Origin: Cheiracanthium punctorium
Taxonomy: Eukaryota; Arthropoda; Arachnida; Araneae; Cheiracanthiidae
Direction of reading: 5' to 3'
Assembly: GCA_038373885.1 (NCBI GenBank)
Contig: JAWZYV010002480.1
Location: forward strand, 62,001-126,000
DNA length: 64,000 nucleotides
This document shows, in pieces, positions 11,904 to 59,993 of this stretch. The translations under genes were made by a program, and so were the position numbers. Each line of letters begins with the position of its first letter. Position 1 is the first letter of the stretch. Below the pieces are notes generated by a model. The model saw nothing but the letters and a program-made list of their open reading frames with translations, ran no database searches and was not told the DNA's origin.

Positions 11904-12366
11904 CTAGCTGCGTGCCCGTTCTTCGCACGGTAGGAAACGAAAAATTTCCTCATATGTGTAATTCGAATTAATTCCAGTTTCCAGTGATGTGGAATCTAGA
12001 AAAAACAAAATTATTTCACTCTTGACTTAAAATTTGCGTCATATATGTAATAACCCAAGATCATTGCAATATAATGACACACACAAACACACAAAAAACA
12101 AAAAACCATGTCAACGTCATTCGGTATCAAAAAAGTGAAAATGGACCGTTTGCAGTGAACTTCTCACTTTCAAAATGTCTTATTTCCTCAGACATGCTGT
12201 CTTTTAGGTTCACGTTTTAGCCTTAAATACCTTAGACACTACATGAAATGGAATTCGAATTAATTCCAGTGATGTGGAATTTAGAAAAAGCAAAATTATT
12301 TCACTCTTGACTTAAAATTTGCGTCATATATGTAATAACCTGAGATCATTGTAATATAATGACACA

Positions 12367-12399
<33 letters not shown>

Positions 12400-13392
12400 C
12401 TATGTCAGCGTCATTCGGTATCAAAAAAGTGAAAATGGACCGTTTGCAGTGAACTTCTCACTTTCAAAATGTCTTATTTCCTCAGACATGCTGTCTTTTA
12501 GGTTCGCGTTTTAGCGTTAAATACCGCAGACACTACATGAAATGGACATTTTTTTTATTTTAAAAATACGTCACCCTCTCTTGCAACACTTTACAAAAAG
12601 AAAAGAGATAAAAGATAAGACTGCGCTATTTATAAAGGCTTTAAAATTGTTTTTCTAGATTATGCAGTTTAATTTTTCTTCTCACAAATATATCCAGTAT
12701 TTATAAAAGGAAATCGAGCCAAGCAAAGAAATCGTCTGCTCGCGGGACCCGTTTTTATATATTTTTTTCAACTGGCAATTTTAATCATTGTTACTGTATC
12801 CATGACAACCGAACCGCAAGATATCAAACCGAAACTCATAAGCATGTGCTACTGAAATGAAAATCCTTCTTTACTTAAAAATTCGTAAAAATTCTCCTAA
12901 TTTGTATTTTTCCTCCGTTCTTCTTTTAAAAGTGGGCGAATTGTGTGCTCCGTCTTTTGCCCAAATATAAAAAAGTTACGACAGATAGAATTCAAGATGC
13001 AGCAGTTTTAAAAATATTTTACGAAAGTCAGCGTCAAATTCAATTTTATTTGAAAAATTCCCAAAAATCTGAAAATTATGTTACACAGTCCGAAAACCAC
13101 AGTTTTTAAAAGAAAATTTTCTCCTCTATACGATGATCTAACTATCGTTTTCTTGCGAGTGCAATTACCGGCGTTATTATGTATTACGCAAGAAAAATCG
13201 CTAAAAATCGGACAAAACATAAAATAAAACATTTTCTAATTCGAATTTCGAAAAAATCGCTTCGAGGTGTGTCGAGACCCGTCTTGGAGAATTTCCGTAC
13301 AAAATTTGGTAGGTCTACGATCACCCGTTTCGGAGCTACGCGAGACACAGACAGACAAACGGACAGTTTACACACTGTTTTATTTATATAGA
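11904..13392 (-). mobile_element. Non-autonomous Helitron/Helentron, copy H1
   Basis: On the minus strand the element begins TCTATATAAATAAAAC (at 13,392) and ends CAGCTAG (CTAG at 11,904-11,907). A CCGT...ACGG hairpin lies about 10 nt before the end. The flanks are A and T, the classic Helitron insertion between A and T with no duplication. GACAGACAAACGGACAG lies close behind the 5' end, a motif shared with the other copies here. No helicase or Rep gene is present. Two near-identical copies of a roughly 290-bp unit lie inside. Confidence 0.85.
11958..12541 (+). repeat. About 290-bp tandem duplication inside Helitron H1
   Basis: A unit running from the AATTCGAATTAATTCCAG block to CACTACATGAAATGG is present twice, at about 11,961-12,248 and 12,250-12,541. 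The copies differ by few substitutions and by the length of the (CA)n/(A)n run (expanded at 12,362-12,399 in the second copy). Confidence 0.85.
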
Positions 13393-13889: not shown

Positions 13890-15099
13890 CTAGCTGAAGT
13901 ACCCGTCGTTGACGGGTTAGTACTGAATGCAAATTTCCAAAAAGCAAGAACTTTCGTCAGCAGTGTAGGAGTACACAGAATGGATGTAGTATGTTGCCAA
14001 ACTAAAGAAAGCGAAGTTATAATTGCGCATAAATATTTACGCATATTGAAATAATTTTCATAAAATCTCAAAATCTAATCAATATTTTTGAAAAATTGGA
14101 AGCTTAGAATTTAAGTTGAGTGACAACCTATCATTTCACCAAATTTCGTTTCATTCCCTGCACTCTTTATTTCATGATGCTGGAACAAAATTTCAGCATT
14201 TTAAAACGATTTTCACAAATTCTCAAAATGTAATCAAAATATTTTAAAAATTCAACTCCTATAAATTAAGATTAGCAACTACCTATCATATCACCAAATT
14301 TCGTATCATTCGTATTAGTCGTTATTACGTGCGGCTTGAAGAAATATAAACGTATTTTAAGAGAATTTTCACAAAATCTAATAAAAGTGTTTAAAAAATT
14401 GGACATCTATAGTTTATGTTGAGCAACCATCTATCGTGACCAAATTTCATATCATTCGCTTTAGTCGTTATTACGTAATGCGTGAACAAAGATTCACTCA
14501 GTTTTAAACGATTTTCGCAAAATCTCGAAATCTGATCGATTTTTCTTAATTAGATGCTTATAGTTTAAGGTGAGTACCCACCTATCATTTCACCAAATAT
14601 CATTTTTTCACCTTTGCAGTTATTATGTGATGTGCGAACACAAATTTACGCAGTTTGAAACGATTTTCGAAAAATCTGAAAATCTAAAGCGAAGATTTTT
14701 TAAAAATTCGACGCCTATGTTTTAAGTTGAGTAACCACCAATCATGATACCAAATTTCATTTCAATCGCTTCAGTCGTTTCTACGTGATGCTCGAACACG
14801 AATTTACGCAGTTTAAAACGATTTTCGCAAAATCTCTAATGAAGATTTCATTTTAAATCGGCGCCAATGTTTTAAGTTGAGTGACCACCTATCATGACAC
14901 TAAATTTCATATCATTCGCTTCAGTCGTTTTTACGTGATGCTTGAACAAAAAAAGCGTCACGGACAGAATGACAGAACGACAGACAGACGCTTATTTTTT
15001 AGGGTCGCACCGGATTCCCAGGTGCTTGAAACGGATAGAAATCGCAAAATTTTTGAATTCCAAGAAATGTACAGACAAAAGTCTAATTTTATTTATATA
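13890..15099 (-). mobile_element. Non-autonomous Helitron/Helentron with internal minisatellite, copy H2
   Basis: The 3' end on the minus strand is a hairpin CCCGTCAACGACGGG followed by TACTTCAGCTAG (CTAG at 13,890-13,893). The 5' side runs to TATATAAATAAAATTAGAC near 15,099, where H3 begins at once. It belongs to the same family as H4 (22,647-24,285), sharing both ends and the body. The body consists mostly of degenerate tandem units of about 156 bp, each with the pattern CGATTTTCGCAAAATCT ... TATCAT ... CATTCGC ... GTCGTT. No protein gene. The final GA (TC on the minus strand) found in H4 is missing here, as if H3 inserted into the terminus. Confidence 0.85.
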
Positions 15100-22646: not shown

Positions 22647-24285
22647 CTAGCTGAAGTACCCGTCGTTGACGGGTTAGTACTGAATGCAAATTTCTAAAAG
22701 CAAGAACATTTGTCAGCATTGTAGGAGTACACGGAATGGATGTAGTATGTTGCCAAAGTAAAGAAAGCGAAATTATAATTTTTATGTATTGTTAAAATAT
22801 TACAGGTTAGGGAGTAACTAAGTAATATCATTTCATTCGCTTTAGTCGTAATTATGGGATGCGCGAACGAATATTTACACATATTGAAATAATTTTCGCA
22901 AAATCTCAAAATCTAATCAACATTTTTGAAAAATTGGAAGCTTAGAATTTAAGTTGAGTGACAACCTATCATGTCACCCAATTTTTGTTTAATTCCCTGC
23001 AGTCTTTATTTCGTGATGCTGGAACAAAAATTTTAGCATTTTTAAACGATTTTCACAAAATTTCAAAACGTAATCAAAATATTTTAAAAATTCAACACCT
23101 ATAAATTAAGATTAGCAACTACCTATCATATCACCAAATTTCGTATTAGTCGTTATTACGCGATGCTTGAAGAAATATAACCGCATTTTGGGAGAATTTT
23201 CACAAAATATCAAAATTTAATAAAAATGTTTAAAAAATTAGACACCTATACTTTATGTTGAGCAACAACCTATCATGTGACCAAATTTCATATCATTCGC
23301 TTTAGTCGTTATTACGTAATGCGTGAACAAAAATTCACTCACTTTGAAGCGATTTTCGCAAAATCCCAAAATTTGATCGGTTTATTTTTAGATGCTTATA
23401 GTTTAAGGTGACCACCTATCATTTCACCAAATACCATTTTTTCACCTTTGCAGTTATTACGTGATGTGCGAACACAAATTTACGCAGTTTGAAACAATTT
23501 TCGTAAAATCTCAAAATCTAATCAAGATTTTTTTAAAATTCGGCGCCTATGTTTTAAGTTGATTGACCACCTATCATGACACCTAATTTCATATCATTCG
23601 CTTCAGTCGTTTTTACGTGATGCTTGAACACAAATTTACGCAGTTTGAAAGGATTTTCGCAAAATCTCAAAATCCAATCAAGATTTTTTAAAAATTCGAC
23701 GCCTATGCTTTAAGTTGAGTGGCCACCTATCATGACATCCAATTTCATATCATTCGCTTCAGTCGTTTTTGCGTGATGCTTGAACACAAATTTACGCAGT
23801 TTGAAACAATTTTCGCAAAATCTGAAAATTTAATCAAGATTTTTTAAAAATTCGACGCCTATGTTTTAAGTTGAGTGACCACCTATCATGACACCCAATT
23901 TCATATCATTCGCTTCAGTCGTTTTTGCGTGATGCTTGAACACAAATTTACGCAGTTTGAAACGATTTTCGCAAAATCTGAAAATCTAATCAAGATTTTT
24001 TAAAAATTCGAAGCCTATGTTTTAAGTTGAGTGACCACTTATCATGTCACTCAATTTCATATCATTCGCTTCAGTCGTTTTTACGTGATGCTTAAACAAA
24101 AAAAGCGTCACGGACAGAATGACAGAATGACAGAACGACAGAATGACAGAATGACAGAAGGACAGACAGACAAACTTTTTTTTTAGGGTCGCATCGGATT
24201 CCCAGGTGCTTGAAACGGATAGAAATCGCAAAATTTTTGAATTCCAAGAAATGTACAGACAAAAGTCTAATTTTATTTATATAGA
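22647..24285 (-). mobile_element. Non-autonomous Helitron/Helentron with 156-bp minisatellite, copy H4
   Basis: It belongs to the same family as H2. The minus-strand 5' end TCTATATAAATAAAATTAGA is at 24,285, and the hairpin CCCGTCAACGACGGG plus TACTTCAGCTAG ends at 22,647. The flanks are A and T. The body is a degenerate tandem array of about 156-bp units (CGCAGTTTGAAA recurs at about 23,639, 23,794 and 23,951), more copies than in H2. A short GACAGAAT/GACAGAAC repeat (24,114-24,172) sits near the 5' end. No coding region. Confidence 0.9.
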
Positions 24286-29936: not shown

Positions 29937-30177
29937 TTAACTCTACCGAATAAGCGTACTCAGTATAAATATTAGTTACGCTAAAGAAACTCTTGTTGCA
30001 TGAGCTTTCTGTTGGAAATGAACTTACTGAACATTTTAAGTGTAAAATTTTACTGACTTACAAAAGAATGTTTATATTGTTGCGGAATTACTCTGCTACT
30101 CCTGGGGTTCGTCGTTCTAAAGTCCAGTGGTGTAAAAAGTTCAAGTAAAAAGTCACTTGTCAGGATGGAACACAAAC

Positions 30178-30183
30178 TTTATT
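30178..30183 (-). promoter_or_regulatory. Poly(A) signal in 3' LTR
   Basis: The minus strand reads AATAAA, about 330 nt downstream of the presumed start site and about 100 nt before the LTR end, where the R/U5 border of an LTR is expected. The same hexamer is at 36,454-36,459 in the 5' LTR. Confidence 0.6.
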
Positions 30184-30511
30184 TCTTCTAGAACTTCGTA
30201 GAACAATCAGCTGCACACAATTCACAAGCACAATCTAGCAGTAACGTGCTTTTAACAATCCGCTTGGATCAGAAGCTCTCACAAATGCTGTATTTCTCAC
30301 ACAAAATAAGTCACTTTTACAGGCAAAAATTCCGTGGAAATATTCAAGGGATATAGTACACTATCCCTTAAGACACAGCAATGAAGAATTTACACACAGC
30401 ACTTTAAAAACAGCTTCACAAAGCAAGCTAAAACACAGCTTCTATAGCACTATCAGTTCACACAAAACAAGCGTACTCAGAGCTCCTCACACATTGAATG
30501 TTCATCTCGCA

Positions 30512-30548
30512 ACTGACTCGCTTCGGGGCGATGCCCGCTTCTATAAAT
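30512..30548 (-). promoter_or_regulatory. LTR core promoter (TATA box and initiator)
   Basis: The minus strand has TATTTATA (30,548 down to 30,541), followed by TCAGT at 30,516-30,512 with its A at 30,514, so the TATA begins about 34 nt upstream of the presumed start. Both spacing and the arthropod TCAGT initiator are canonical. The 5' LTR has the same pair near 36,777-36,813, and that one would drive the element. Confidence 0.7.
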
Positions 30549-30720
30549 AGCCGATGCAGGAGGTACAAGAGGTTTCCAGAAAAGTCAATTTCTCGAGGGT
30601 TCTACATAAAGCGTGAATTTTGATTACGTCATAGAAGAGAAATGTTAGGTTATTATGCGTTTTTAATGCAGGAAAAACAACTTCCAGGCCCCATTGGGAA
30701 AATCGCGCCAAATGACCAAA

Positions 30721-30742
30721 AAGTCGCCAAGCTTGGCGACTT
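30721..30742. repeat. 22-bp perfect palindrome in U3
   Basis: A self-complementary 22-mer centred on GCCAAGCTTGGC lies in U3 of the 3' LTR, followed directly by GGCGAAATATCGCC and CCAAATTTGG, which are also palindromic. The 5' LTR has the same at 36,986-37,007. Palindrome clusters upstream of a promoter may bind dimeric factors. A close relative of this motif is at about 40,550-41,020. Confidence 0.85.
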
Positions 30743-30999
30743 TTGGCGAAATATCGCCAAATTTGGCGCCAAAAATAAGTCCTCAAAAGTGAAGAGATCT
30801 AAGCTCTAGGACTAATATTTCTCGAGATTTCTAGAAGCCCATAGAAAAACATACGGGAAAGCGAAACCTCCGTATCTCCGGTTCTAATTGGCCGATTTTG
30901 ATGCAACAAAAAGCAAAATTTATCTATTTGAAGCGTAGAATACGAATTTTAACCCATTTTAAGCCCCAGAGCAGCGGGTTGCCCCGAAAATTCGTAACA

Positions 31000-31361: not shown

Positions 31362-34300
31362 CTAATTACAACCGCGGTAGATGGCAAGCCGATCGTAATG
31401 TACAACTCTTGGCTTCGAGTTTGGTGACTTACGAATCCGTACGATGACGTCATTCAGCCGGTTTAGGACTGTGTAAGGACCGTCCCACGGCGATTGCAGC
31501 TTGGGAGACAGGCCTTTCCGTCGAGTAGGATTCCATAGCCAAACTTTGTCACCTGCGTTGAACTCGTGTCCCGTAGCCTTCGTGTCGTAGCGAGTCTTCA
31601 TCTTTTCCGTGTTCAGGTTGATCCGCTCCCGAGCAAAATGATGTACGTCTTCAAACCGTGCCCGAAGGTTCTCCACGTACTCCTCTGGCGATGAAGGCGC
31701 ATCTGGAGGGCGGCCGAACACTAGATCGGCGGGAAGACGAAGATCTCTGCCGAACAGCATCTGGGAAGGTGTGAAGCCGGTAGTCTCATGGACGGCACTC
31801 CTATAGGCCAGCAGGAACAGGGGGAGTTTCTTGTCCCAGTCCTCTTGATTCCTAGATACCAGGAGCGAGAGGTTGTTCAAAATTGTACGATTGAACCTCT
31901 CCACCATGCCGTCGGATTGTGGGTGTAAAGGCGTAGTCTGGGTTTTGTCCATTCCGAGAAGTTGGCATAGTCCTTTAAAGACTGCAGAGGTAAAGTTCGT
32001 TCCTTGGTCGGAATGAAGTTGCAGAGGGGTTCCATATCTGGAAATCCATTCTTGCACCAGTACCTCTGCTACGGTCGTAGCTTCTTGATCGGGAATAGGA
32101 AACGCTTCGGGCCATTTAGAAAAGTAGTCAATGACAACTAGGATGTATTTGTTGCCATCCGAAGTTCGCGGAAGAGGTCCCAGGATGTCGAGGGCAATCC
32201 TCTCAAAAGGCGCTCCTACATTATAACGATGTAGTCTTCCACGGCTTCGTTTCTTCGGGCCTTTACGGGCGGCACAGGCGTCACAAGCTTGACACCACTT
32301 TTCGACGTCGCCTCGAGCCCTAACGTAGTAGAAGCGCTCGCGAACTTTCTGCAGGGTCTTCATCCTCCTCAAATGGCCTCCAGTGTAGCTATTATGAAGT
32401 TCTTCTAGAACCTTCGGAATCCTCGAGCGAGGGAGTACTAACTGCCATCGGAGCATCTTGCCGTCGTCCGACTCCCATTTACGATACAGGACTCCATTCC
32501 TCAGGCGAAGCGAATCCCATAAAACCCAGAACTGTTTTGTTGCCGGACTGTAAGATGATATTTCTTGCCAACTGGGCTTAGCGCTGGATTTTTCCATAAA
32601 TTCCACAATAGGTTTGATGTCGCTGTCTGCTAATTGATCCGCCCGAACATTTTCGTCACTCCAGGGATCTTGGGATGGTGTCGATGATGTAACTTGGCGG
32701 ACAACGGGATGTTTCAGATGGTAATTTTTCTCTGCCCTGGAGCAATAGCGACAGCTGTCTTTACAGGGCCTTCTTGACAAAGCATCTGCATTTCCATGAG
32801 ATGCCCCTTTCCGATGACGTATCTCGATGTCATATTCTTGTAATCGCTGTATCCACCTGGCTATTTGGCCCTCTGGATTCTTGAAATTTAGAAGCCAGGT
32901 TAAAGAGGCATGGTCCGTTCGGAGCAGGAACTTTTGGCCGTACAGGTAATGATGGAAGTGCTCCACGGCCTTAATGATAGCAAGAAGTTCCTTTCTCGTA
33001 ACACAATAGTTACGTTCTGCCTTTGAAAGGCATTTGCTCCAGTAAGCAATGACGTGTTCTTGGCCATCTATCTCCTGGGACAAAACTGCTCCGACACTCT
33101 CCTTACTCGCGTCTGTGTCCAGGATAAATGGCTTGTCAGGGTGAGGATACGACAAGATCGGCGAAGATGTTAAAGCCGTCTTCAGTTCGTTGAATGCGTC
33201 CTCACATTCCTCAGTCCATAGAAATTTCTGTCCAGTCTCGGTCAATTTGTGAAGAGGTCTTGCAATTTGAGAAAAGCCCTTCACGAATTTTCGATAGTAA
33301 GTACACAGACCGAGAAAACTTCTTAAGTCGTGGATATTCTCGGGACGACTCCAGTTCTGGACTGCGGACGTCTTTTCGGGATCGGTTCGGACTCCGTGGG
33401 CGGATATTATGTGCCCGAGGTAACGTACTTCCCGACGAAACAAATTGCACTTCGATGGACTTAGTTTCAAGTTCGCCTCTTTTAATTTCTGCAGTACCTT
33501 TCGAATGTTCTCGAGATGCTCTTCGAAAGTCCTTCCGACGATGATGATATCGTCCAAATAAACGAGACATGCTTCGTAGGAAAGTCCTCTCAACACTGTC
33601 TCCATTAGTCGCTCAAATGTAGCAGGTGCGTTGCAGAGTCCAAAAGGCATAACTTTGAACTGCCATAATCCTTGTCCCGTGGTGAACGCAGTCTTTTCAC
33701 GGTCGTCGGGATGAATTTCCACTTGCCAGTAACCACTTTTCAGATCCAGAGTGGAAAACCATTCGTTTCCCGATAAAGTGTCCAAAGTGTCGTCTATCCT
33801 GGGAAGAGGGTAGCTGTCTTTCTTGGTAATGTCATTCAGACGTCTGCAGTCAACACAGAACCGGGTGGAACCATCCTTCTTTCGGACCAAAACAATTGGT
33901 GAGGCCCAGGGACTAGTCGACGGCTCGATGACGTCATCACGCTGCATCTCCTCTAAAAGTCTACTCACCTCTTCTTGCTTAGCAAACGGCAGCCGCCTAG
34001 GATGTTGCTTGATGGGAGAATGACTGCCTGTATCTATCCTATGTTGAGTTAAGCTCGTACGGCCAAAGTCACCCGAAGTTCGGGAGAAGAGGTCTTCAAA
34101 TTCAGCTATTACTTTCCCCGCAGCGCTTCTCTGTTCTGCCCTTAACTCCATGTCTTGTATTAATTCCTTCGTCAGGCACTCGGAAGATTTAGCTGTCGTT
34201 TGGCTGATGTTCTTATTAATGCAGGTAACAGGAGTGCATGTCGCCAACACTTCAGTTTTCTTTATCACCTTCGACTTGTCCGTCACATTTACTACTCTAA

Positions 34301-34954
34301 CTGGAATTTCTGTTCTCGACAAGTCCACAAGTGTTGCTCCCACAAGTACTCCTCTGATGGAATCACTATTGCTTGGGTGTTCGATTAATCCAAAACGGAA
34401 TTTATTGCTTTCTTTTACTGTTCCAGAAATTATTGAATCAGTTCTGGGAGGTAGAGTGATATCAGTCTGGGCTATTATTTGCTGTACAGGTAAAATAGTT
34501 TCATTTTTAATATCGAACGCAGCTATTTCTTCTGAGTCCGAACGAAGCTCATTATTCTTAAAGTCCAAGTTAAATTTGTGCGATTTTAAAAAGTCCAGTC
34601 CGAGAATAAAAGAGTCTGTAATATTAGTGACATATACCACATGGTCGTATCTGGCATTTCCAAACGTGATTTCTACTTGCGCTTTTCCGCCCACTTCGAT
34701 CTTGTCACCTGTCACAGTCTGGAGGGTCAGCGAGGGCGGAGTCCAGATAATCTTCAAATTTAATTTCTTGGCCAGATCCGTCCTTATGATGGTTACGTTC
34801 GCTCCAGTATCAATCACCATGTGGCATGGGGAACCATTAACATATCCCAGTACGAAGAGTCCATTACTGCCACCATTCACTGATGAAATCTGCAAGACTT
34901 TTAGGTGGGGCTTTTGACTATATGGCAACCTCCGCCCCGCGAGATGGCCACCTC
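31362..34954 (-). CDS. pol: Gypsy Pol polyprotein: protease, reverse transcriptase, RNase H, integrase
   Basis: This frame supplies the enzymes for copying and integrating the element. No ATG precedes the protease: the first long-frame codon at 34,928 is TTG, and the frame is open upstream across the gag stop, so expression by -1 frameshift from gag is inferred. Numbering from 34,928 (1,188 codons): protease with VIDTGAN (Asp 40); reverse transcriptase with RFCVDCRRLND and YLDD (457-460); RNase H with acidic residues at about 606 (TDAS), 647, 672 and 715; integrase zinc-binding His 845, His 852, Cys 879, Cys 882; integrase catalytic Asp 914, Asp 974, Glu 1010 (DD35E); and a WDGPY motif (about 1148-1152) of the GPY/F module. 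No chromodomain is visible. All catalytic residues are in place and no stop interrupts the frame. There is no env downstream. Confidence 0.97.
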
Positions 34955-36304
34955 CTAGTTTCCCTCTTTCATGTTCTTAGATTTCTCTTGCTGGTCATAA
35001 GACTTTCGACCACAATGCTTTTGTACATGACCTTCGACGCCACACTTCCAGCATTTCACTTTCTTTCGGCCATCTCTCGTTCTATCGGATCTTAATTTTC
35101 GCTCTATGAGATCTTCAATTCTCTTCAACCTGTTCTCGACGCCCTCTGTGTCTTTGTCAGCTTCCTCTTGGACCGTGACCGCTCTAACAGCATGCCGATC
35201 TTTTCTCACGGCCCGCTGGGCTGCCTCTAGCTTCATTGCGAACACCAGAGCAGACTTCAAATCCTGATAATCTTCCAACATAAGTGACTTTTGGGTTTCT
35301 GGATCACGGATGGCTTCAATAAAATGACGCACCGCCATTTCTTCTCGGACATTATCAAGATGGTCCATGTAAGCTAGATGACAAAGCCTATCTATGTCCG
35401 AAGCCAGCTCTTGAAGGGTCTCGCCAGATCTCTGCACCCTTGACTTAAGTTGGATTCTACTATATTCTTTCTGGCACTTCTCTCCGAATTTCATCTCCAA
35501 GGCACTGGCAAGGGCGTCAAAATCTCCTATCTTCGTCGCTCCGATAGTTTGCAATACATTAATTGCATCTCCGCTAAGGGAAGCGGCCAGTTGATTAGCT
35601 TTCTCGGACTCGCTCCAACCATTGGCTCTGGCGACGATTGAAAATTGGGTCTTGTAAGCTTCCCAGGGAGTCTTTCCGTCATAGGCAGTAAGTTTCACTG
35701 CTGGGCGGTGTGAAGATAACCTGATGTTTTCGGGTAACTTTCCCAGCTTTACGAGAGAGTCCAATTTTTCTTTAATTTTAGCTTCACATTCTTCATGTAT
35801 TTTCGAAACTATATTTTCTTTCCAGTCTAGTTTCTCCTCAATTTTATTCTTAAATTCTTCCCGCATTCTGCAAATATCTTGCTGCAATTCCTTAACATTT
35901 TCTTCTATTTTTCCTTCAATTCTTTGTTCATATTTCGTTTGAGTTTCTTCTATGAGTGACATTCTTTTCTCCATTATCTCTTGATTTTCCTGCACACTCT
36001 TTTCGAATTTCTCTAATTTTCCCAAAGCAGTCTCCATTTTCTCCAATCCCAATTTCATTCCTTCTTGTCCGGCTTCAATTTTCTTTTCTAAATCGGTCTG
36101 TCCTGCTTCAATTTTCTTCTCTAAATCCGCCTTCATCTGTTCTTGTCCAGCTTTCATCTCGTCTTGTCCGGCTTTCATCTGTTCTTGTGCGGCTTTCATC
36201 TCGTCTTGTCCGGCTTTCATCTCGTCTTGTCCGGCTTTCATTTCTTGCATCATATTCATGAGCTTTTGAAGTTGTTCTTCCATTTTCTGTCTAGTCAAAA
36301 CCAT
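34955..36304 (-). CDS. gag: Gypsy Gag structural protein
   Basis: A 449-residue frame with an ATG at 36,304, only about 30 nt past the primer-binding site, so it is the first frame on the element RNA. Residues about 10-75 are a long run of variant repeats of the type EMKAGQDEMKAGQ and DLEKKIEAGQ, which should form a coiled coil; such tandem charged heptads are unusual for Gag and probably drive multimerisation. A capsid-like middle (about 215-375) follows, including WEAYKTQFSIVA and ETLQELASDIDRL. Residues about 418-431 are a CCHC zinc knuckle, CWKCGVEGHVQKHC, which packages the RNA. The stop TAG at 34,957-34,955 follows a GGGAAAC slippery site directly, so a fraction of ribosomes should continue into pol. 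No disabling lesion was seen. Confidence 0.96.
   Translation of the reverse strand: MVLTRQKMEEQLQKLMNMMQEMKAGQDEMKAGQDEMKAAQEQMKAGQDEMKAGQEQMKADLEKKIEAGQTDLEKKIEAGQEGMKLGLEKMETALGKLEKFEKSVQENQEIMEKRMSLIEETQTKYEQRIEGKIEENVKELQQDICRMREEFKNKIEEKLDWKENIVSKIHEECEAKIKEKLDSLVKLGKLPENIRLSSHRPAVKLTAYDGKTPWEAYKTQFSIVARANGWSESEKANQLAASLSGDAINVLQTIGATKIGDFDALASALEMKFGEKCQKEYSRIQLKSRVQRSGETLQELASDIDRLCHLAYMDHLDNVREEMAVRHFIEAIRDPETQKSLMLEDYQDLKSALVFAMKLEAAQRAVRKDRHAVRAVTVQEEADKDTEGVENRLKRIEDLIERKLRSDRTRDGRKKVKCWKCGVEGHVQKHCGRKSYDQQEKSKNMKEGN
34958..34964 (-). promoter_or_regulatory. -1 ribosomal frameshift slippery site (GGGAAAC) at gag-pol junction
   Basis: In the gag frame the last codons read GAG GGA AAC TAG, so the heptamer G GGA AAC fits X XXY YYZ and touches the stop. 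After a -1 slip the ribosome reads GGG AAA CTA GGA GGT and stays open into the protease. The pol frame is also closed just upstream by a TAA inside gag, so the overlap is only about 40 nt. Such heptamers are a well-established retroelement signal. A G+C-rich tract follows (34,925-34,954), but I did not fold it. Confidence 0.9.
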
Positions 36305-36333
36305 AAACTGGAAAATTAAAGTCTTTCTTTAGA

Positions 36334-36353: not shown

Positions 36354-37264
36354 TGTTGCGGAATTACTCTGCTACTCCTGGGGTTCGTCGTTCTAAAGTT
36401 CAGTGGTGTAAAAAGTTCAAGTAAAAAGTCACTTGTCAGGATGGAACACAAACTTTATTTCTTCTAGAACTTCGTAGAACAATCAGCTGCACACAATTCA
36501 CAAGCACAATCTAGCAGTAACGTGCTTTTAACAATCCGCTTGGATCAGAAGCTCTCACAAATGCTGTATTTCTCACACAAAATAAGTCACTTTTACAGGC
36601 AAAAATTCCGTGGAAATATTCAAGGGATATAGTACACTATCCCTTAAGACACAGCAATGAAGAATTTACACACAGCACTTTAAAAACAGCTTCACAAAGC
36701 AAGCTAAAACACAGCTTCTATAGCACACAAAACAAGCGTACTCAGAGCTCCTCACACATTGAATGTTCATCTCGCAACTGACTCGCTTCGGGGCGATGCC
36801 CGCTTCTATAAATAGCCGATGCAGGAGGTACAAGAGGTTTCCAGAAAAGTCAATTTCTCGAGGGTTCTACATAAAGCGTGAATTTTGATTACGTCATAGA
36901 AGAGAAATGTTAGGTTATTATGCGTTTTTAATGCAGGAAAAACAACTTCCAGGCCCCATTGGGAAAATCGCGCCAAATGACCAAAAAGTCGCCAAGCTTG
37001 GCGACTTTTGGCGAAATATCGCCAAATTTGGCGCCAAAAATAAGTCCTCAAAAGTGAAGAGATCTAAGCTCTAGGACTAATATTTCTCGAGATTTCTAGA
37101 AGCCCATAGAAAAACATACGGGAAAGCGAAACCTCCGTATCTCCGGTTCTAATTGGCCGATTTTGATGCAACAAAAAGCAAAATTTATCTATTTGAAGCG
37201 TAGAATACGAATTTTAACCCATTTTAAGCCCCAGAGCAGCGGGTTGCCCCGAAAATTCGTTACA
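36354..37264 (-). repeat. 5' LTR of the Gypsy element (911 bp)
   Basis: Nearly identical to the 3' LTR, shorter by one 11-bp segment. It starts TGTAACGAATTTTCGG and ends CCGCAACA. It carries the working promoter: TATTTATA (36,813-36,806) and a TCAGT initiator further down. The AATAAA is at 36,459-36,454. Estimated layout: U3 from 37,264 to about 36,780, then R, then a short U5. Confidence 0.97.
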
Positions 37265-44240: not shown

Positions 44241-46915
44241 CTAGCTGCTTACCCGTTCTCCGCACGGTAGGAGACGAATATTTTCCTTACACACATATAA
44301 TTCGAATTAAACCCAGTGATAGGAATCTTTAATAGTGAAAAATTGCTGGAATTCTGACGAAAAGCTGACTCCATGAGTGGAAATTTGAGACGATTGCAAC
44401 ATGATGACACAAAAACTACGTCATTGTCACTGGCGATCAGAAAAGTAAGAACTTTACGGTATGCAGACGAAAATTTTCTCTTTCGAAAAATGCCTTATTT
44501 CTACATCATATAATTCTCTTTTTTAGGTTTAATTTATAGCATTCATACATACCATATGAATAACATTATATGATGTTGAATGCTATTTTATCTTATCTTG
44601 CATTTCGTAAAACGTGGACAATGCATTAGCACAGTTATGTTGCAGATGACTTTATTAAATTTTACCCAAATTTAAAAAACCTACACGAAACAATCGATGC
44701 ACATTGTACGTTCAGAAACCAAAAATGCATCCTGTTTCCGTGAAGATCTTGTCGCTTTCGTAAATGAAAAAAATTTGTGACGTAACTTAAGCGGAAAAGC
44801 TTATTACCCTTACTGAACTCTACATACCTTACTGAACCCCCTTACTACATACCTACATACCTTACTGAACTCTACTGAACTCTCTTAATACAGTACCACA
44901 CTTGTTACATAAAATTAGCGTTGATCACACTGCCAATTCACACTAAATAAATAACTTATTCCATATTTTATTTTTAACATAGATTAATTGCATAGTGTCA
45001 AATTCAATATTAAACAAAATCTGAAATCGTTTCTAGAGCTCTAGGTAACTGGAGTAACTGGAATATATATGAAAAAATAAATAGAACTTTAACATATAAG
45101 TAATTTATATGAAATATTCTAAGCACATTGGATCCCGTTATTCGGAAAGATTCCACAAACGCCATGGGAAGAAAGAGCAATTAATTTCATATTATATTTT
45201 GTATTCCTTTCAAGCGCCTTTGTTATGTACATGAATTCAATATCATTCTCGTACACGATGCTTATCCTATAGTCTCTGGTGATTTATTTTGGATTTTCAT
45301 TTCATATTCCTGACTTTTCATACTTTTGAAATTTTGTTGCTTTGCGCATGTGAATAATCGATTATCATTTCGCATTACGGCTACCAATTAAATAGTTTTC
45401 CATATCGCTTCTTCCACGTTAACCACGTTAATCTGCCTTTTTCTAGTTTAAAAAAAAACGCCTACAATGTTTCATTGCTTCAATTTAGACACACAGAGGG
45501 GTTAGGCAAATACGCACCCGACAAATTGCTTCCTTATGTCCGCCGAAGCAGCACATACGTTAGCGTGTAATGTGCTTCTCCGGATAATCTGACAGCAAAA
45601 CAGAAGACAATGACGTGAAAATGACGTCACACGCGAAGGAAATAAAATGAAAAATATGCAGAATTGCCTGAAAAAACTTCGATTATTTTTAATGCGCAAA
45701 TATGTTAAAATTCTATTTGTTTCATATTTAATGCGTTTTCACTTTTTTGGGTCTTAAGAGATGTAGAAATGAGTGGTTTCACTTAATTATTAAATTGAAC
45801 AACTTAAGTGGCAACAATGGATTCCGTTGCTACGGAAACTGTAGCAGTGTTAAAAATAGAATATGAAATGATTTATTTATGTTTACTTTGCTAGAACTGC
45901 CATTTTGGCGTAATTAACGTCGGCAGTCGATGGCAAATAGCCAAAATGAATCACACATTAAACTTGACAATAAATGCAATAATTTAAAGGCATTACCAGC
46001 TAGTCTAACTGGGTTTAAAAAATATTCTCATTCATCTCAAACAGCATTCGTATTTATAAAGACTTCCTATTTTATTACACCTTGTTTGGCGGGATTAAAA
46101 AATATTATCTATTCATACGCTTGTAACACCAACTCATATCAATCGGGGCATAGAATTAGCAATACAAATGAAAAAGTTTAATTTTCTGAAATTTGGCGGG
46201 GTTTCCCTAACTTAAATCAATTTATTTAACTTGATGAAAATCATTTAAAATCGCCTTAATAACTGCATTATTTCTGAACAGAAAATTAAAATTTCAGGCT
46301 AAATTCTAGTAAAACCTGCACTTGTTTTTAAAAATACTATTTCTTTACGCTCTCAGTAAATTGCGCCAAGCCTAAAATTGTGTGCAAACCACTAGAATCC
46401 ACTTTCTCAAAATCGCCATATAAGCCATTTTTTTTCGCCAAATTATAAGGTTATACACTTTAGTCTCTGAAATTTACAAATCCTTTTTCTTTTGCGTATA
46501 AAAAATATTGAATTCCTGCTCTGATTTCCCACGCAGACGATATTTTAATTAAAAAATAACCTAGCAAATATTCGAAACAGAAAAAAAGTATTATTCCTTT
46601 ATTTTTAATGCAAGAGTGTAAATCATTTAATAAATTCGCCAAACATGGCAACCTCGATGCTTATTTCTCACATTTTCACTACAGGGGTTACAATCGCGTA
46701 GTTGCGGAGAGCAAAAATTAGTGTTTTTGACGGGGTTTTTTATCAATATCTCCTAAACTAATTCGAATTTCGAAATTTAAATTAGCGGAAGACCTTCCTC
46801 GGAATTTTTCGAATAAGTGGACACCTCGATTGAAACTCAACTCCCAGCGGTTTCGGAGGAGATGATGCTACACACAGACAGACAGACAGACGCGCACAGA
46901 TTTTAATAGTATAGA
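44241..46915 (-). mobile_element. Non-autonomous Helitron/Helentron, array copy H5
   Basis: On the minus strand it begins TCTATACTATTAAAATCTGT (at 46,915) and ends CAGCTAG (CTAG 44,241-44,244), preceded by a CCGT...ACGG hairpin. GACAGACAGACAGACGCGC lies near the 5' end. It is followed without any spacer by copy H6 and is very similar to it throughout. No Rep, helicase or other gene is present. A 65-codon frame (45,502-45,699) is shared with H6 but not with H7 and has no known domain. Confidence 0.92.
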
Positions 46916-49525
46916 CTAGCTGCTTACCCGTTCTCCGCACGGTAGGAGACGAATATTTTCCTTACATATATAATTCGAATTAAACCCAGTGATAGGAATC
47001 TCTAATAGTGAAAAATTGCTGGAATTCTGACGAAAAGCTGACTCCATGAGTGGAAATTTGAGACGATTGCAACATGATGACACAAAAACTACGTCATTGT
47101 CACTGGCGATCAGAAAAGTAAGAACTTTACGGTATGCAGACGAAACTTTTCTCTTTCGAAAAATGCCTTATTTCTACATCATATAATTCTCTTTTTTAGG
47201 TTTAATTTATAGCATTCATACATACCATATGAATAACATTACATGATGTTGAATACTATTTTATCTAATCTTGCATTTCGTAAAGCGTAGACAATGCATT
47301 AGCATAGTTATGTTGCAGATGACTTTATTAAATTTTACCCAAATTTAAAAAACCTACACGAAACAATCGATGCACATTGTACGTTCAGAAACCAAAAATG
47401 CATCCTGTTTCCGTGAAGATCTTGTCGCTTTCGTAAATGAAAAAATTTGTGACGTAACTTAAGCGGAAAATCTTATTACCCTTACTGAACTCTTAATACA
47501 GTAGCACACTTGTTACATAAAACTAACGTTGATCTCACTGCCAATTCACACTAAATAAATAACTAATTTCATATTTTATTTTTAACATAGATTAATTGCA
47601 TAGTGTCAAATTCAATATTAAACAAAATCTGAAATCGTTTCTAGAGCTCTAGGTCTTGTAACTGGAGTAACTGGAATATATATGAAAAAATAAATAGAAC
47701 TTTAACATATAAGTAATTTATATGAAATATTCTAAGCACATTGGATCCCGTTATTCGGAAAGATTCCACAAACGCCATGGGAAGAAAGAGCAATTAATTT
47801 CATATTATATTTTGTATTCCTTTCAAGCGCCTTTGTTATGTACATGAATTCAATATCATTCTCGTACACGATGCTTATCCTATAGTCTCTGGTGATTTAT
47901 TTTGGATTTTCATTTCATATTCCTGACTTTTCATACTTTTGAAATTTCGTTGCTTTGCGCATGTGAATAATCGATTATCATTTCGCATTACGCCTACCAA
48001 TTAAATAGTTTTCCATATCGCTTCTTCCACGTTAACGACGTTAATCTGCCTTTTTCTAGTTTAAAAAAAAACGCCTACAAAGTTTCATTGCTTCAATTTA
48101 GACACACAGAGGGGTTAGGCAAATACGCACCCGACAAATTGCTTCCTTATGTCCGCTGAAGCAGCACATACGTTAGCGTGTAATTTGCTTCTCCGGATAA
48201 TCTGACAGCAAAACAGAAGACAATGACGTGAAAATGACGTCACACGCGAAGGAAATAAAATGAAAAATATGCAGAATTGCCTGAAAAAAGTTCGATTATT
48301 TTTAATGCGCAAATATATTAAAATTCTATTTGTTTCATATTTAATGCGTTTTCACTTTTTTGGAACTTAAGAGATGTAGAAATGAGTGGTTTCACTTAAT
48401 TATTAAATTGAACAACTTAAGTGGAAACAATGGATTCCGTTGCTACAGAAACTGTAGCAGTGTTAAAAATAGAACATGAAATGATTTATTTATGTTTACT
48501 TTGCTAGAACTGCCATTTTCGCGTAATTAACGTCGGCAGTCTATGGCAAATAGCCAAAATGAATCACACATTAAACTTGACAATAAATGCAAAATTTAAA
48601 TGCATTACCAGCTAGTCTAACTGGGTTTAAAAAATATTCTCATTCATCTCAAACAGCATTCGTATTTATAAAGACTTCCTATTTTATTACGCCTTGTTTG
48701 GCGGGATTAAAAAATACTATCTATTCATACGCTCGTAACACCAACTCATATCAATCGGGGCATAGAATTAGCAATACAAATGAAAAAGTTTAATTTTCTG
48801 AAATTTGGCGGGGTTTCCCTAACTTAAATCAATTTATTTAACTTGATGAAAATCATTTAAAATCGCCTTAATAACTGCATTATTTCTGAACAGAAAATTA
48901 AAATTTCAGGCTAAATTCTAGAAAAACCTACACTTGTTTTTAAAAATACTATTTCTTTACGCTCTCGATAAATTGCGCCAAGCCTAAAATTGTGCAAACC
49001 ACTAGAATCCACTTTTTCAAAATCGCCATATAAGCCATTTTTTTTCGCCAAATTATAAGGATATACACTTTAGTCTCTGAAATTTACAAATCCTTTTTCT
49101 TTTGCGTATAAAAAATATTGAATTCCTGCTCTGATTTCCCACGCAGACGATATTTTAATTAAAAAATAACCTAGCAAATATTCGAAACAGAAAAAAAGTA
49201 TTATTCCTTTATTTTTAATGCAAGAGTGTAAATCATTTAATAAATTCGCCAAACATTGCAACCTCTATGCTTATTTCTCACATTTTCACTACAGGGGTTA
49301 CAATCGCGGAGTTGCGGAGAGCAAAAATTAGTGTTTTTGAGGGGGTTTTTTATCAATATCTCCTAAACTAATTCGAATTTCGAAATTTAAATTAGCGGAA
49401 GACCTTCCTCGGAATTTTCCGAATAAGTGGACACCTCGATTGAAACTCAACTGCCAGCAGTTTCGGAGGAGATGATGCTACACACAGACAGACAGACAGA
49501 CGCGTACAGATTTTAATAGTATAGA
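46916..49525 (-). mobile_element. Non-autonomous Helitron/Helentron, array copy H6
   Basis: The second copy of the head-to-tail array, with the same ends as H5. Its CTAG (46,916-46,919) touches H5's terminal base. Differences from H5 are scattered substitutions and small indels, for example loss of a CCTTACTGAACTC-type expansion found in H5 near 44,810-44,885. A 9-nt spacer (49,526-49,534) separates it from H7. Confidence 0.92.
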
Positions 49526-50222
49526 ATAGAAAGACTAGCTGCGTGCCCGTTCTCCGCACGGTGGGAAACGCATATTTTCCTTACACATATATAATTCGAA
49601 TTAAACCCAGTAATGAGGAATCTCAAAACGTGAAAAAATATTTGAATCGTGACTAAAAGTTGACGTCATGAGTGCAAATTTTAGACGATTGCAACATGAC
49701 ACAAAAACTACGTCAATGTGACTGGCGATCAAAAAAGAAAGAACTTTATGGTATGCAGACAAAACTTTTCTCTTTCGAAAAATGCCTGATTTCTACATCA
49801 AATAATTCGTTTTGTGAGGTTTAGTATATACCACATTGAGGTTTAGTATATATAGTATATACCACATAAATAATATTACATGATGTTGACAGCAATTTTA
49901 TCTTGCATTTTTCAAAGCGTGGACAATGCATTAGCGCAGTTATGTTACACGCGACTTTATTAAATTTTACCTAAATTAAAAAACCTACAAGAAACAATGG
50001 ATGCATCATTTACGTTTAAAAGCCAAAAATGTACCCTGCTCCCGTGAAAATCATGTCGCTTTTGTAAATGAAAACGTTCGTGATGTAACTTCTGAGAAAA
50101 AGCTTATTACCCTTATTGATCTCTTAATGCAATATCACACTTGTTACATAAAACTGACGTTGATCTCACTGCCAATTCGCCTTAATAAATAACTGATTTC
50201 ATTTTTCATTTTTTACAGATTA

Positions 50223-50552
50223 CAGTTGACCCCTTTATAACATGGGTCTACAACACGAATTCTATAGAACTCGACGAAAACATTACGATCGTTTTCGTGT
50301 AACACGTTAAAAGAGACTCGTACAGTACGGTGAAATGAGACATGTGTTCTGATATTATGACGCCTTAGCTCCTGTAATTAACATATCCTTAGAATGGCAA
50401 CACCAAACATCATTGTATTTTTACGAAGCGCAAATAAGTTTTGCCGCTATTATACCGCGCAGTCCGCACTCCAGGTGGAGTATATCACAGGGCCCGTACA
50501 CTCGGATTCCTATAACACGGAACGTATCTACCGTGTTATAGGGAATCTACTG
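50223..50552. mobile_element. Tigger/pogo-like MITE nested in H7
   Basis: The ends are CAGTTGACCCCTTTATAACA and, as reverse complement, CAGTAGATTCCCTATAACAC, flanked by TA (50,221-50,222 and 50,553-50,554). The uninterrupted site is visible in H5 and H6, where AGATTAATTGCATAGTGTC spans a single TA, so the insertion boundaries are confirmed by comparison. A partial relative is at 19,585-19,800. Confidence 0.93.
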
Positions 50553-50763
50553 TAGTTGAATAGTGTGAAATTCAATAGTTAAGAAAATTCTGGGTTGCCT
50601 TATTTAGTAATATTTCATCTTACCTTGGTGGCCGAAATGTATTAAAACGAAATATTCGAACTGTATCAAAAGTAAAATTTTTAATTTTGTATAACACTCA
50701 GAACAACTTCGGAGTTTGCCACCTACGACGGTTTTTCATGACGTGACAACTGATGCTTGCGTA

Positions 50764-50882
50764 CAGTGGCGTAGCCAAGGAGGAGATAAGGGGTCACAAC
50801 CCCCATGCGGAGTTTTTTGCCATACAAAATGTATATTCTTCACTCCCGTAACATTCCCATGAAAATTTTTCGGTTACTCCTG
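50764..50882. mobile_element. hAT-type MITE nested in H7 (8-bp TSD)
   Basis: It starts CAGTGGCGTAGCC and matches the reverse complement of the 572-703 MITE across the body (GTCACAACCCCCATG, CATACAAAATGTATATTCTT). The right terminus is mutated (GGTTACTCCTG). The flanks CTTGCGTA and CTTGCATA form the 8-bp duplication with one mismatch. Confidence 0.88.
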
Positions 50883-52909
50883 CTTGCATATAATTGATCT
50901 TTTTTTTTTTTTTTCATTTATCAGTGATCAATATACTTCAGGATCGGAATCTCCGCGGTAAAAAAATGCTCTAAAAAATCTGACACCAGAAAATTCTGAT
51001 TTGCACAATGGGGTTACACAAATACGCGCCGGACATACGCTCTGCTTATGTCCGGAGGAGCAAATACATTAGAGGTTATGTGCTGCTCCGGATAATCTGC
51101 CAGCAAAACACCAAAAATTACGTAAAAAATGACATCCACACGCGAGGGAAATAAAATTAAAGATTACAGTTAGTTCTATTTATTTCACGTTTGATGCGTT
51201 TTCACTTTTTCCAGTCTTAAAAGCTGCAGAAATGAGTGGTTTCACTTAATTGTTAAATTTAACAACTTAAGTGGCAACAATGGATTCCGTTGCTACGGAA
51301 ATTATAGCAATGTTAAAAATAGAACATGAAATGAGTTATTCATGTTTACTTTGCTTGAACTGCCATATTGGCGAAATTAACGCCGCCAGTCGATGGCCAA
51401 TAGCTCAAACCACAAATTAAACTTGACACTAAAGTCAATACGCAATACTTTGTTTGGCGGAATTAAAAAAAAAAAATATCTATGCATACGCTAGTGACAT
51501 CCGCTCATATCAATTGTGGAATGGAATAAGTACAGAGCTGCACTACATTTGAATATTTTTCGCCAACTTTGCTAAGAAATGTACTAAAGTAGGAATCAAC
51601 ATACATTTCAATTCGTAAAACAAAAAATATTTTAGACAGTATTAATTACGCCTTTCTAACAGCTTTTAGTAAAAGAAACTTCCGTAGCGCTGCTTTAACA
51701 AATAAGAATCAATTATTTATTACACAGTGCTTCGGTCGCCAAATGCCAACATACACCTTTTTGCAAGATTTTTTTGTTTATAGGGAATCATTCGAAGGCT
51801 TGATTTAACAGCAATCATAATGGGAAATAGTTATCTATCATTTATATGGCTCCATCGCCAAAATTTATTGCAGGCATATTATTGATAAGTAGCAGTTATT
51901 TAAATTATTATTAACTATAACGGGTTTTAATCACCGTTAACTACCATGTACAAAATGCGAGAATTTCAATTTTCTGAAATTTGGCGGAATTCCTCTAACT
52001 TAAATCAGTTTACTTAATTTCGTGTAAATTCTATAGATCGTTTAAAATCGCCTTAATAACTGCATTATTTCTATATGAAAAATCGAAGTATAGCGCCGTA
52101 AAACTTATACTTGTTATTAAAAATACTATTTCGTTACGCTCTCAGTAATTTGCGCCAAGCCCAAAACTATACAAATCGGTAGAACCTACTACTTTCTCAA
52201 AATCGCCAAAAGAGCCATTTTTTTTTTTCGGACAAACTAAAGATATACATGTTAGTCTCGGAAATCTCTCAATCCCTTATTCTTTTACACATAAAAAACA
52301 TTGAATTCCAGCTCTGATTTAACATGAACGTAATATTTTAATTAAAAAATAACTTTGTAAATAATCTAAACAAAAAAAAATCATTATTCTTTTATTTTTA
52401 CTGCAGGAGTCTAAATAATTTAATAAAATAGCCAAACATGGCAACCTCGATGCTTATTTCTCACTTTTTTGACTACAGGGGTTACAATCACGGAATTGTG
52501 GAGAGCAAAAATTAGCGTTTTTGATGGGGTTTTTTATCAATATCTCCTAAACTAATTCGAATTTCGAAATTTAAATGAGCGGAGGTTGTTTCTCGAAATT
52601 TTCCGAATTCGTGGATACCTCATTCGAAACTCAACTCCCAGCCGTTTAGGAGGAGATGATGCTACACACACACACACAGACAGACGCGCACAGATTTTAA
52701 TAGTATAGAAGAAGATTTCTGATGTCAACTTTTTGAACTAGGGACGATTTCTTTTAAAATCGTTATGCATAAAAATTGAAATGTCAACATCCTACTCGGT
52801 CATGTTAAAATATTTTGTGGAGTTGAGGTACAGTACTCGTGAATAAAGGCTAGGAAAAATAAATAACGTCTTCAACTGATAGCGAAAATACCGTCCCAAA
52901 AAAGGGACG

Positions 52910-58427: not shown

Positions 58428-59993
58428 CAGTGCGCGAAAAAAGTATAAGGACACGCGAAAAATCGCCAAAACTAGAAGCCTTGTTTACAGAATCTTATGC
58501 AAATTTTTGCAGCAAAAATAGAAGTAAAACTAAAATATTTCATGCGTAAAGTAATTAAAATTTTCAATTTTAAATCTGCTAAAATTTAAATTTTGATTTT
58601 TAAACCAAAATGACAGCGGAAAAAAGTATAAGGACATTGCTTTTTCCCCAGTAATTATTTAAAAATTTGCATATATGAAAGCATAAAATGACAATTCCGA
58701 GTTAAAAGATTCATTTGCGAAAAGAATTTCCCACTCGGCGACTTTCAGTGTGAATTTTTAACGATGACCAAAGGAACTCAACTTTCTGACTCTGAAAAAG
58801 GAAAAATTGTTGCTTTCCGCGAATGTCGATTAAGTGGATGGAAAATTTCAAAAAGAATCAAGAGATCTAAAACGGTGGTTTATAATTTTCTAAAAAATCC
58901 TGGGATGTATGGTATGAAAAAGCGAACTGGGAGACCAGAAATTCTCACTCGTCGACAAAAAGGAAGAATTGTAAGGAGAGCTTGCGAGAAAAAAGAAACC
59001 GCAAATGAAGTTAGACAAAATTTGAGTTTACCATGCTCAACAAGGACTGTTCAAAATGTTTTGAGTAAACATCCTCAAGTTTCTTATGGGAAATGAGTGT
59101 CACGCCCCCCTCGTACAAATCATCATAAGAAAAGAAGAGTTGACTTTGCCAAAAAATACATTTCTCTTGGTCAAATGTGGGCTGATGTAATTTTTTCGGA
59201 CGAAAAAAAGTTCAATCTTGATGGACCTGATGGTTTTCGTTATTTTTGGTATGATCTGCGAAAGACCAAGGAAGTGTTTTCCAGGCGTCAATATGGTGGT
59301 GACTCGGTTATGGTATGGGGCGCTTTTGCGGTAAATGGGCCCACTCCAATTGTATTTATCAACCGTAAAATGAATTCGGACAGGTATGTTGATATGTTAG
59401 GAGAAAGTTTGTTACCTGAAGCGCCACTAATTACTTCATGGGACTATATTTTTCAGCAGGATAATGCTTTGATACACGTTTCTACGAGCGCAGAACTCTG
59501 GTTTGAAGATAATTCTGTAAATTTACTTGATTAGCCGGCGAGAAGTCCCGATCTTAATCCAATCGAAAACTTATGGGAACTTCTAGCCCGAGAAGTTTAT
59601 AAAAACGGCACACAGTATCAATGCTCACAAGATCTTGTCGTCGCTATCAAAGACGCTTGGGAAAAAATATCTGTGGACATTTTAAAAGATCTTTCAGGAT
59701 CTATGACCTCTCGGCTTATTCAAGTGATTGAAAAAAAAGGTAATTTTCTTGATTATTGAAACATTTTTAAAGTATTTTAGAACATGTCCTTATAATTTTT
59801 TCCGTATTTCCTTTAATGTTAAATTTTGTAAAATCAATATTTTGAAGATAAATTTTGTTTTTTATGTGGTATAAGTGTTATCACAAACTTATGCAGCAGA
59901 AGTAAGAAGTATAAAAATTTCATTTAGGTGAAATGGAAATAAAGCATATTTTAATGCAATTAAATGCTGTCCTTATACTTTCTTCGCGCACTG
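58428..59993 (+). mobile_element. Tc1-like element with IR/DR ends (1,566 bp)
   Basis: It is flanked by TA on both sides (58,426-58,427 and 59,994-59,995). The outer ends are CAGTGCGCGAAAAAAGTATA (left) and, as reverse complement, CAGTGCGCGAAGAAAGTATA (right). A second copy of the GAAAAAAGTATAAGGACA block lies inside the left end (about 58,618-58,638) and a matching one inside the right end (about 59,785-59,812), giving the two-repeat IR/DR layout known from Sleeping Beauty and Tc3. The interrupted host sequence is preserved intact in the opposite arm of the inverted repeat. Confidence 0.95.
58764..59759 (+). pseudogene. Tc1-type DD34E transposase with two nonsense codons
   Basis: A single frame of 332 codons (close to the usual 340) runs from the ATG at 58,764 to a TGA at 59,757-59,759. 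The N-terminal helix-turn-helix region reads LSDSEKGKIVAFRECRLSGW and RSKTVVYNFLKNPGMYG. A basic GRPEILTRRQKGRI linker follows. The catalytic core has DVIFSDEKKFNLD (first Asp), IFQQDNALIH (second Asp) and SPDLNPIENLW (Glu), with 34 residues between second Asp and Glu. Two in-frame stops break it: TGA at 59,094-59,096 and TAG at 59,532-59,534; the TAG falls where the family usually has Trp. No frameshift was seen, so the copy is recent but inactive. It would have cut and pasted the element at TA sites. Confidence 0.94.

Follow-up and report, generated by a model that had tools for sequence, protein, structure and literature searches.

Tandem head-to-tail Helitrons have been described in Myotis, Bombyx, maize, rice, Drosophila and plant centromeres (PMC4067079, PMC5148889, PMC12628747), unlike Helitrons lying next to each other are already known in bat and maize (PMC4067079), and one report invokes tandem arrays in favour of rolling-circle transposition (PMC5876387). 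For three tandem copies in Metarhizium, both double 5′-end insertion and rolling circle were proposed (PMC5148889), and McGurk and Barbash attributed dimers of transposable elements (TEs) chiefly to insertion-site preference and double insertion (PMC12628747). In the Helraiser system, the transposase cuts the top strand of the left terminal sequence (LTS) between the flank and the 5′ TC, cuts the right terminal sequence (RTS) at the transposon end, and favours A|T sites (the bar marks the insertion point) with an AT-rich 3′ flank (PMC4778049). Here, we compare with these systems an array of three non-autonomous Helitrons, H5, H6 and H7, in a 64-kb window (positions 62,001 to 126,000 of contig JAWZYV010002480.1) of the 2.53-Gb, 15,171-contig assembly of the spider Cheiracanthium punctorium. 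We consider it fairly probable that LTS-guided target choice turns resident LTSs into landing pads, so that such arrays grew mainly by repeated oriented insertion, while some pairs may be concatemers.

Compared with the tandem arrays in these reports, the spider genome is distinguished by its 933 junctions, by neighbours of mixed subfamily and by a single-copy target motif that resembles the LTS. The plant arrays are described as made of truncated copies, many of which combine multiple 5′ ends with a single 3′ end, whereas here the units mostly have both ends. Helraiser and Helibat (PMC4778049, PMC5876387) share the 5′ TC, the CTAG 3′ end, the A|T site, the AT-rich 3′ flank and the exact head-to-tail circle junction; however, the insertion section of the Helraiser report names no LTS-like target motif (PMC4778049), and no clustering near the donor is reported among 701 re-transposition sites (PMC4778049, PMC5876387). 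In Fusarium, one inserted FoHeli copy similarly precedes the partial 5′ end of another by 2 bp, but FoHeli differs in its Helitron2-like ends and targets, its arrangements are single cases and the passages describing it give no target motif (PMC5148889). The dimers of McGurk and Barbash concern Drosophila TEs, whereas here the preferred site would be the element's own end. Neither an LTS-like target motif nor its use to explain arrays was found in the literature searched, which mostly excluded subscription papers. Recognition of a target through, or in the likeness of, the element's own end is known from IS608 and the IS200/IS605 transposons, the IS91 HUH transposons and adeno-associated virus at AAVS1; these are prokaryotic or viral and offer an analogy only.

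All three copies lie on the minus strand, and their order in the Helitron direction is H7, H6, H5. H5 (44241..46915; 3′-most) and H6 (46916..49525) belong to subfamily A, and H7 (49535..52709; 5′-most) to subfamily B. Direct reading of the ends on the window strand gives the start CTAGCTGC at 44241, 46916 and 49535 and the end AATAGTATAGA finishing at 46915, 49525 and 52709, so that the array of three same-direction copies spaced by 0 and 9 nt, as described in a first-pass annotation of the window, stands. The 19-nt 5′ end has three matches in the window with up to three mismatches allowed, all three exact (0.06 expected), and direct repeats of up to 300 nt, spaced by 2.6–3.2 kb, run across the array. 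At the H5/H6 junction (46915..46916), the 5′ TC of H5 abuts the CTAG-3′ of H6 with zero spacer (GA|CTAG on the window strand). H6 and H7 are separated by 9 nt (49526..49534, minus strand), which read ATAGAAAGA on the window strand and TCTTTCTAT in the Helitron direction. These 9 nt had been taken for a spacer; they are present, but look more like a variant 5′ end, probably an extension of H6, than host DNA. The spacer begins with T, as do all 15 of the 15 non-zero spacers among 100 listed junctions of the 933. The 5′ end of H7 may extend to 52715 if TCTTCT is included (A|TCTTCTTCTATACT). The LTS motif ATTAAAATCTG, which resembles the single-copy target motif described below, lies at 46897..46907 in H5 and is identical in H6 (49507-49517) and H7 (52691-52701), all on the minus strand. 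The RTS of H5 (44241..44280, minus strand) includes CTAG-3′ and a GC-rich CCGTGCGGAGAACGG stretch.

Over 2605 aligned sites, H5 and H6 show 49 differences, together with a 64-bp indel and small indels, whereas H7 differs from H5 at 650 of 2534 sites and from H6 at 659 of 2536 (∼26%), which agrees with the earlier view that H5 and H6 are much closer to each other than either is to H7. The ends of H7 are ∼10–18% apart from those of H5 and H6, and the middles are barely alignable. Among 28 complete array members there are two subfamilies, A, mostly 2.6–2.8 kb (H5 and H6), and B, mostly ∼3.2 kb (H7); the lengths of a few copies in the set fall outside these values. The first-pass annotation had given H7 two extra miniature inverted-repeat transposable elements (MITEs), for which it gave no coordinates; the surplus of H7 turns out to be largely common to its sampled subfamily-B kin. 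Six of the eight other subfamily-B members align with H7 end to end in one block, and therefore the sequence that H5 and H6 lack most likely came with subfamily B and not by later insertions, as judged from these alignments. Relative to C182a.2, H7 has a surplus of 54 nt (positions 851-904 of H7), and another subfamily-B member, C7035.4, is interrupted relative to H7.

The first-pass annotation had proposed searching the same genome for other arrays and for TC/CTAG junctions. The pattern of a 5′ end, up to 30 nt and a 3′ end gave 933 head-to-tail junctions genome-wide, against 0 for a reversed-pattern control. Among 100 of these listed in contig order and classed by eye, 85 have no spacer, nine have TCT and six have others of 1–9 nt; the longest is 9 nt although 30 were permitted. 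Inverted head-to-head junctions with 0–12 nt between the ends number 0 genome-wide (reversed control 1 + 1), giving a 95% upper bound of 0.3% relative to the 933. Self-targeting at any A|T irrespective of orientation was considered as a candidate and is ruled out, because inverted junctions number 0. The genome holds 3317 exact 3′ ends, and 35 of 100 listed 5′ ends abut another copy's 3′ end, 33 of them without a spacer. One array was read to both of its outer ends; it has four units and the flanks A|TC ... CTAG|T. Another array has at least six units. In C732, what looks like the start of an array of three or more units lies ∼125 bp into the 5′ end of a further copy with the same orientation (L053, 2066-2195).

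The kinship of neighbouring copies was assessed in 39 copies from 11 arrays: four arrays chosen by likeness to the H5/H6 junction (window included), two for which three junctions were listed, and five taken as the first to have at least two listed. In the junction table, L002, L004 and L005 were omitted as duplicates, 3-kb loci were exchanged for longer ones and L001 is the window; of its 52 junctions, nine are unclassified on one side and 43 are classified on both. Different subfamilies are joined at 16 of these 43 junctions, so read-through of a single element is excluded there. In a list-order subset (the first 30 listed junctions and one more from the C182 array), 22 of 31 junctions are classified on both sides and ten of the 22 are mixed, compared with 11.4 expected by independence; neighbour subfamilies thus assort as if independent. 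Pairs were scored as identity times coverage. Eight of 17 complete adjacent pairs from the 11 arrays, including H5/H6, reach 0.96 or more (permutation mean 0.85, at most five in 5000), and the remaining nine have a mean of 0.756, compared with 0.759 between copies of different arrays. Because mixed subfamilies occur near chance and these nine pairs are no closer than cross-array copies, we conclude that many junctions join copies that arrived separately. The eight high-scoring pairs exceed all 5000 permutations, and therefore local duplication may also occur. One near-identical pair, C732.1/2, shows five differences over 1801 sites in the compared piece, and some such pairs may be concatemers.

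For the H5/H6 pair, relatives were also searched genome-wide with a 1801-nt piece of H5, and 40 of 3322 candidates were scored. H5 has many copies at 98–99% among these, and H6 is outside the listed ones. On other contigs, no fewer than 11 copies reach 3070–3144 bits against the H5 piece and one more ties with H6, whose own score is 3067 bits (local BLAST, with an equal self-score of 3249). A read-through dimer should consist of mutual nearest relatives and H5 has closer kin elsewhere; thus, the rolling-circle read-through predicted for this pair in the first-pass annotation finds no support. Read-through could be retained if all of the closer copies descend from H5 after the pairing, or if conversion altered H6, which we consider less likely. 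The description of H5 and H6 as twins, drawn from the 39 copies, is withdrawn in view of the closer H5 copies.

The target sites of single copies were analysed from two lists of 3′ flanks. The first list (100 listed ends) fixed position 18 as non-G, and for this reason a longer second list was made, which constrains position 23 to non-G and thereby removes most own-LTS flanks; the two lists share loci and hence are not independent. T stands directly 3′ of 100 of the 100 listed 3′ ends, of which 21 run into the family's own LTS and six into another LTS-like end, leaving 73 single-copy flanks. In the second list, 89 of 100 flanks are outside both LTS classes, and 87 were kept after two that do not start with T were dropped. 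The strict motif TAAA.{1,4}[TC]G occurs in 33 of the 87 flanks, compared with 3.6 expected from the A|T sites of the window and a maximum of 12 in 2000 shuffles. These control sites number 12,337, come from the 64-kb window only and include its own LTS copies. A direct position-by-position match of flank to LTS was rejected as a measure, with z of 0.9 against shuffles when unshifted, 8.0 when shifted by 2 and 5.0 when shifted by 4; since the shifted matches are strong and the unshifted one is weak, the motif was fitted with a free offset, LTS flanks excluded. The fitted target motif is WWTAAAATTTG, with its G mostly 16–18 nt past the insertion point A|T. The family's own 5′ end carries ATTAAAATCTG, with the G at 19. 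Its motif score of 10.42 is reached by 0.0003 of the 12,337 control sites, and these few probably represent LTS copies within the window itself. Across six half/half splits, held-out targets were separated from A|T sites with an area under the receiver operating characteristic curve of 0.842–0.890, and the LTS ranked in the top 0.0007–0.0020. By motif score, therefore, the junction site is a preferred single-insertion target, except at the 9-nt spaced H6/H7 junction.

The window Helitron family also strikes a different LTS-like end (...TATATAATAAAATCCGAGAG), at more than one of its A|T sites. Cases are the 3′ outer flank of L052 (C190); C161, C203, C523, C600 and C604 in the longer flank list; and C203, C235, C600 and C660 in the first list. 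The motif G lies at 16–18 in seven of the eight cases of the longer flank list.

We propose that, in this family, the transposase would pick targets via the same recognition by which it locates and nicks the LTS (A|TC then WWTAAAATYTG). The LTS of a resident copy would then be a first-class target, which would be nicked and receive a new copy; landing at the LTS A|T, the newcomer would take the same orientation, with its CTAG joined to the resident TC. Arrays would extend by repeated oriented insertion, mainly on the 5′ side, and younger units are predicted to lie 5′, while a minority of near-identical neighbours would come from the insertion of concatemers (read-through or circle) or from unequal exchange. 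This one assumption would account for the exact CTAG|TC joint, the uniform orientation, the occurrence of different subfamilies side by side and the LTS-like sequence flanking single copies. The wider statement, that Helitron ends act as landing pads via LTS recognition and that tandem arrays are mainly records of serial self-targeting, we hold with slightly better than even confidence. If true, this would be a new rule of Helitron target choice, checkable on published insertion sets, and a route for Helitrons to seed satellite-like blocks; if arrays arise mainly by self-targeting, the support that they lend to rolling-circle transposition weakens.

The order of growth was examined through divergence. 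The earlier view that the array grew in at least two steps is supported. That H7 came first draws some support from its divergence and none from the MITEs: with 40 of 3875 candidates scored, its closest copies among these are 93% alike over 1.8 kb, save one shorter match at 95%, and H7 seems to be the oldest of the three on this comparison. Of the 16 pairs of same-subfamily neighbours, 11 have the more diverged copy on the 3′ side (one-sided p = 0.105). Divergence was measured from the subfamily consensus, which includes partial copies and is framed on one member that it may favour (H5 for A). The count becomes eight of nine after removing seven twin pairs, and seven of eight after also removing C756.1/2 (≥0.96). 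Subfamily A looks younger than B by divergence from the consensus, and the mixed junctions are A-then-B in 11 cases and B-then-A in five (16 junctions; two-sided p = 0.21).

Several results weigh against serial insertion at resident LTSs. The age trend is weak and its eight-of-nine subset was picked post hoc; five of the 16 mixed junctions have the B-then-A order, and H7 seems to be the oldest yet is the 5′-most unit, opposite to growth on the 5′ side. The position of H7 could possibly result from insertion at the nick of a resident 3′ end (CTAG|T), from a later move of an old B copy, or from insertion of H5/H6 into the 3′ host flank of H7 at an A|T eight bases off. The spacing of the H6/H7 junction is off the preferred one, and the outer flank of H5 scores poorly, being equalled by 26% of A|T sites. 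The motif G lies at 19 in the LTS and mostly at 16–18 in single-copy targets; 54 of the 87 single-copy flanks are without the strict motif and 34 without a loose one. Since the strict form is absent from these 54 flanks and the LTS spacing is ∼2 nt longer, the LTS-like motif is a preference, not a rule. Among 65 listed 5′ ends free of another copy, 34 have A directly before TC and 12 have A before (TCT)n; the other 19 match neither A|TC nor A|(TCT)nTC. Finally, neighbour pairs at 0.96 or more are commoner than in any permutation, and near-identical pairs leave room for concatemers or unequal exchange.

The principal alternative invokes rolling-circle concatemers, in which replication (or a joined circle) would run beyond the 3′ terminator and one event would place multiple units together. 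It would explain the single junction orientation and the exact CTAG|TC of the 85 spacer-free junctions among the 100 listed, a joint that is also that of the Helraiser circle (PMC4778049), as well as the pairs at 0.96 or more and the near-identity of C732.1/2. It does not fit the mixed junctions, the nine pairs no more alike than cross-array copies or the closer relatives of H5 elsewhere, and we regard it as unlikely to be the main source of the arrays. Circles that are recombined or hold several elements, or composite units that co-transpose by bypassing an inner 3′ end, might also yield mixed arrays. Helraiser is reported to form circles and to show bypass of its end (PMC4778049; cited in PMC5148889), and such an origin would account for a B-then-A order such as H7-H6; however, it leaves the LTS-like target motif of single copies unexplained, and we give it very little credence.

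Arrays may also have been made or reshaped when copies underwent unequal crossing over or gene conversion. This would be able to yield the near-identical pairs, but by itself it could not give rise to an initial exact junction of unlike subfamilies, and for most mixed neighbours the best match at full coverage belongs to the neighbour's own subfamily, unlike what reciprocal chimeras would show; as a general account it is improbable, if marginally less so than the composite origin. An assembly artefact might be suspected since several junction contigs are merely ∼18–22 kb. Other junctions, though, fall on contigs as long as 2.7 Mb, and many neighbours are too divergent for collapse or duplication error. 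A one-off of assembly is unlikely because there are 933 such junctions genome-wide, and an artefact is altogether very unlikely, judging from the assembled contigs. Repeated oriented insertion at the LTS is the reading that we prefer as the main source of the arrays.

Because of their 5′ TC, 3′ CTAG and A|T target, the window copies are canonical Helitrons (Helitron1). The 5′ TC terminus, TCTATACTATT, is found at all three copies, and their 3′ CTRR terminus is CTAG. Insertion at A|T without target duplication, judged from the flanks, agrees with the T after all listed 3′ ends and with 46 of the 65 listed free 5′ ends; the TT (or TTTT|T) target of Helentron/Helitron2 is not what was found, most flanks having A|T. 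Folding of 40 nt from two right ends gave no support for a 3′ hairpin, with z of 0.09 and −0.27, no better than shuffles. H5 contains no open frame of 120 aa or more, and the three longest array members have no frame above 162 aa. The single full Rep locus that was read (L059) shows no LTS or RTS of the window family. The genome is rich in Helitron Rep genes, with at least 150 PF14214 matches (150 of 150 scored, from 1269 candidates) and open reading frames of up to 1609 aa. At the 12 free 5′ ends mentioned above, the host A is followed immediately by a (TCT)n extension.

Elsewhere in the window, the region 11904-12546 holds the right end of a fourth copy of the Helitron family (CTAGCTGCGTGCCCGTTCTTCGCACGG), adjoined by a tandem duplication of ∼300 bp (90%) at 11957-12546. 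Arrays of a ∼150-bp tandem repeat at 14031-14952 and 22824-24102 are of the same family and about 70–88% alike. A long terminal repeat (LTR) retrotransposon at 31362-36328 on the minus strand, with LTRs at 30078-30999 and 36354-37264, encodes protease, reverse transcriptase, RNaseH and integrase together with a gag-like frame; its LTRs are 98.6% alike, so its insertion was fairly recent. Lastly, a Tc3-like transposase at 58692-59534 on the plus strand has two frames split by a stop codon, with helix-turn-helix and DDE_3 matches.

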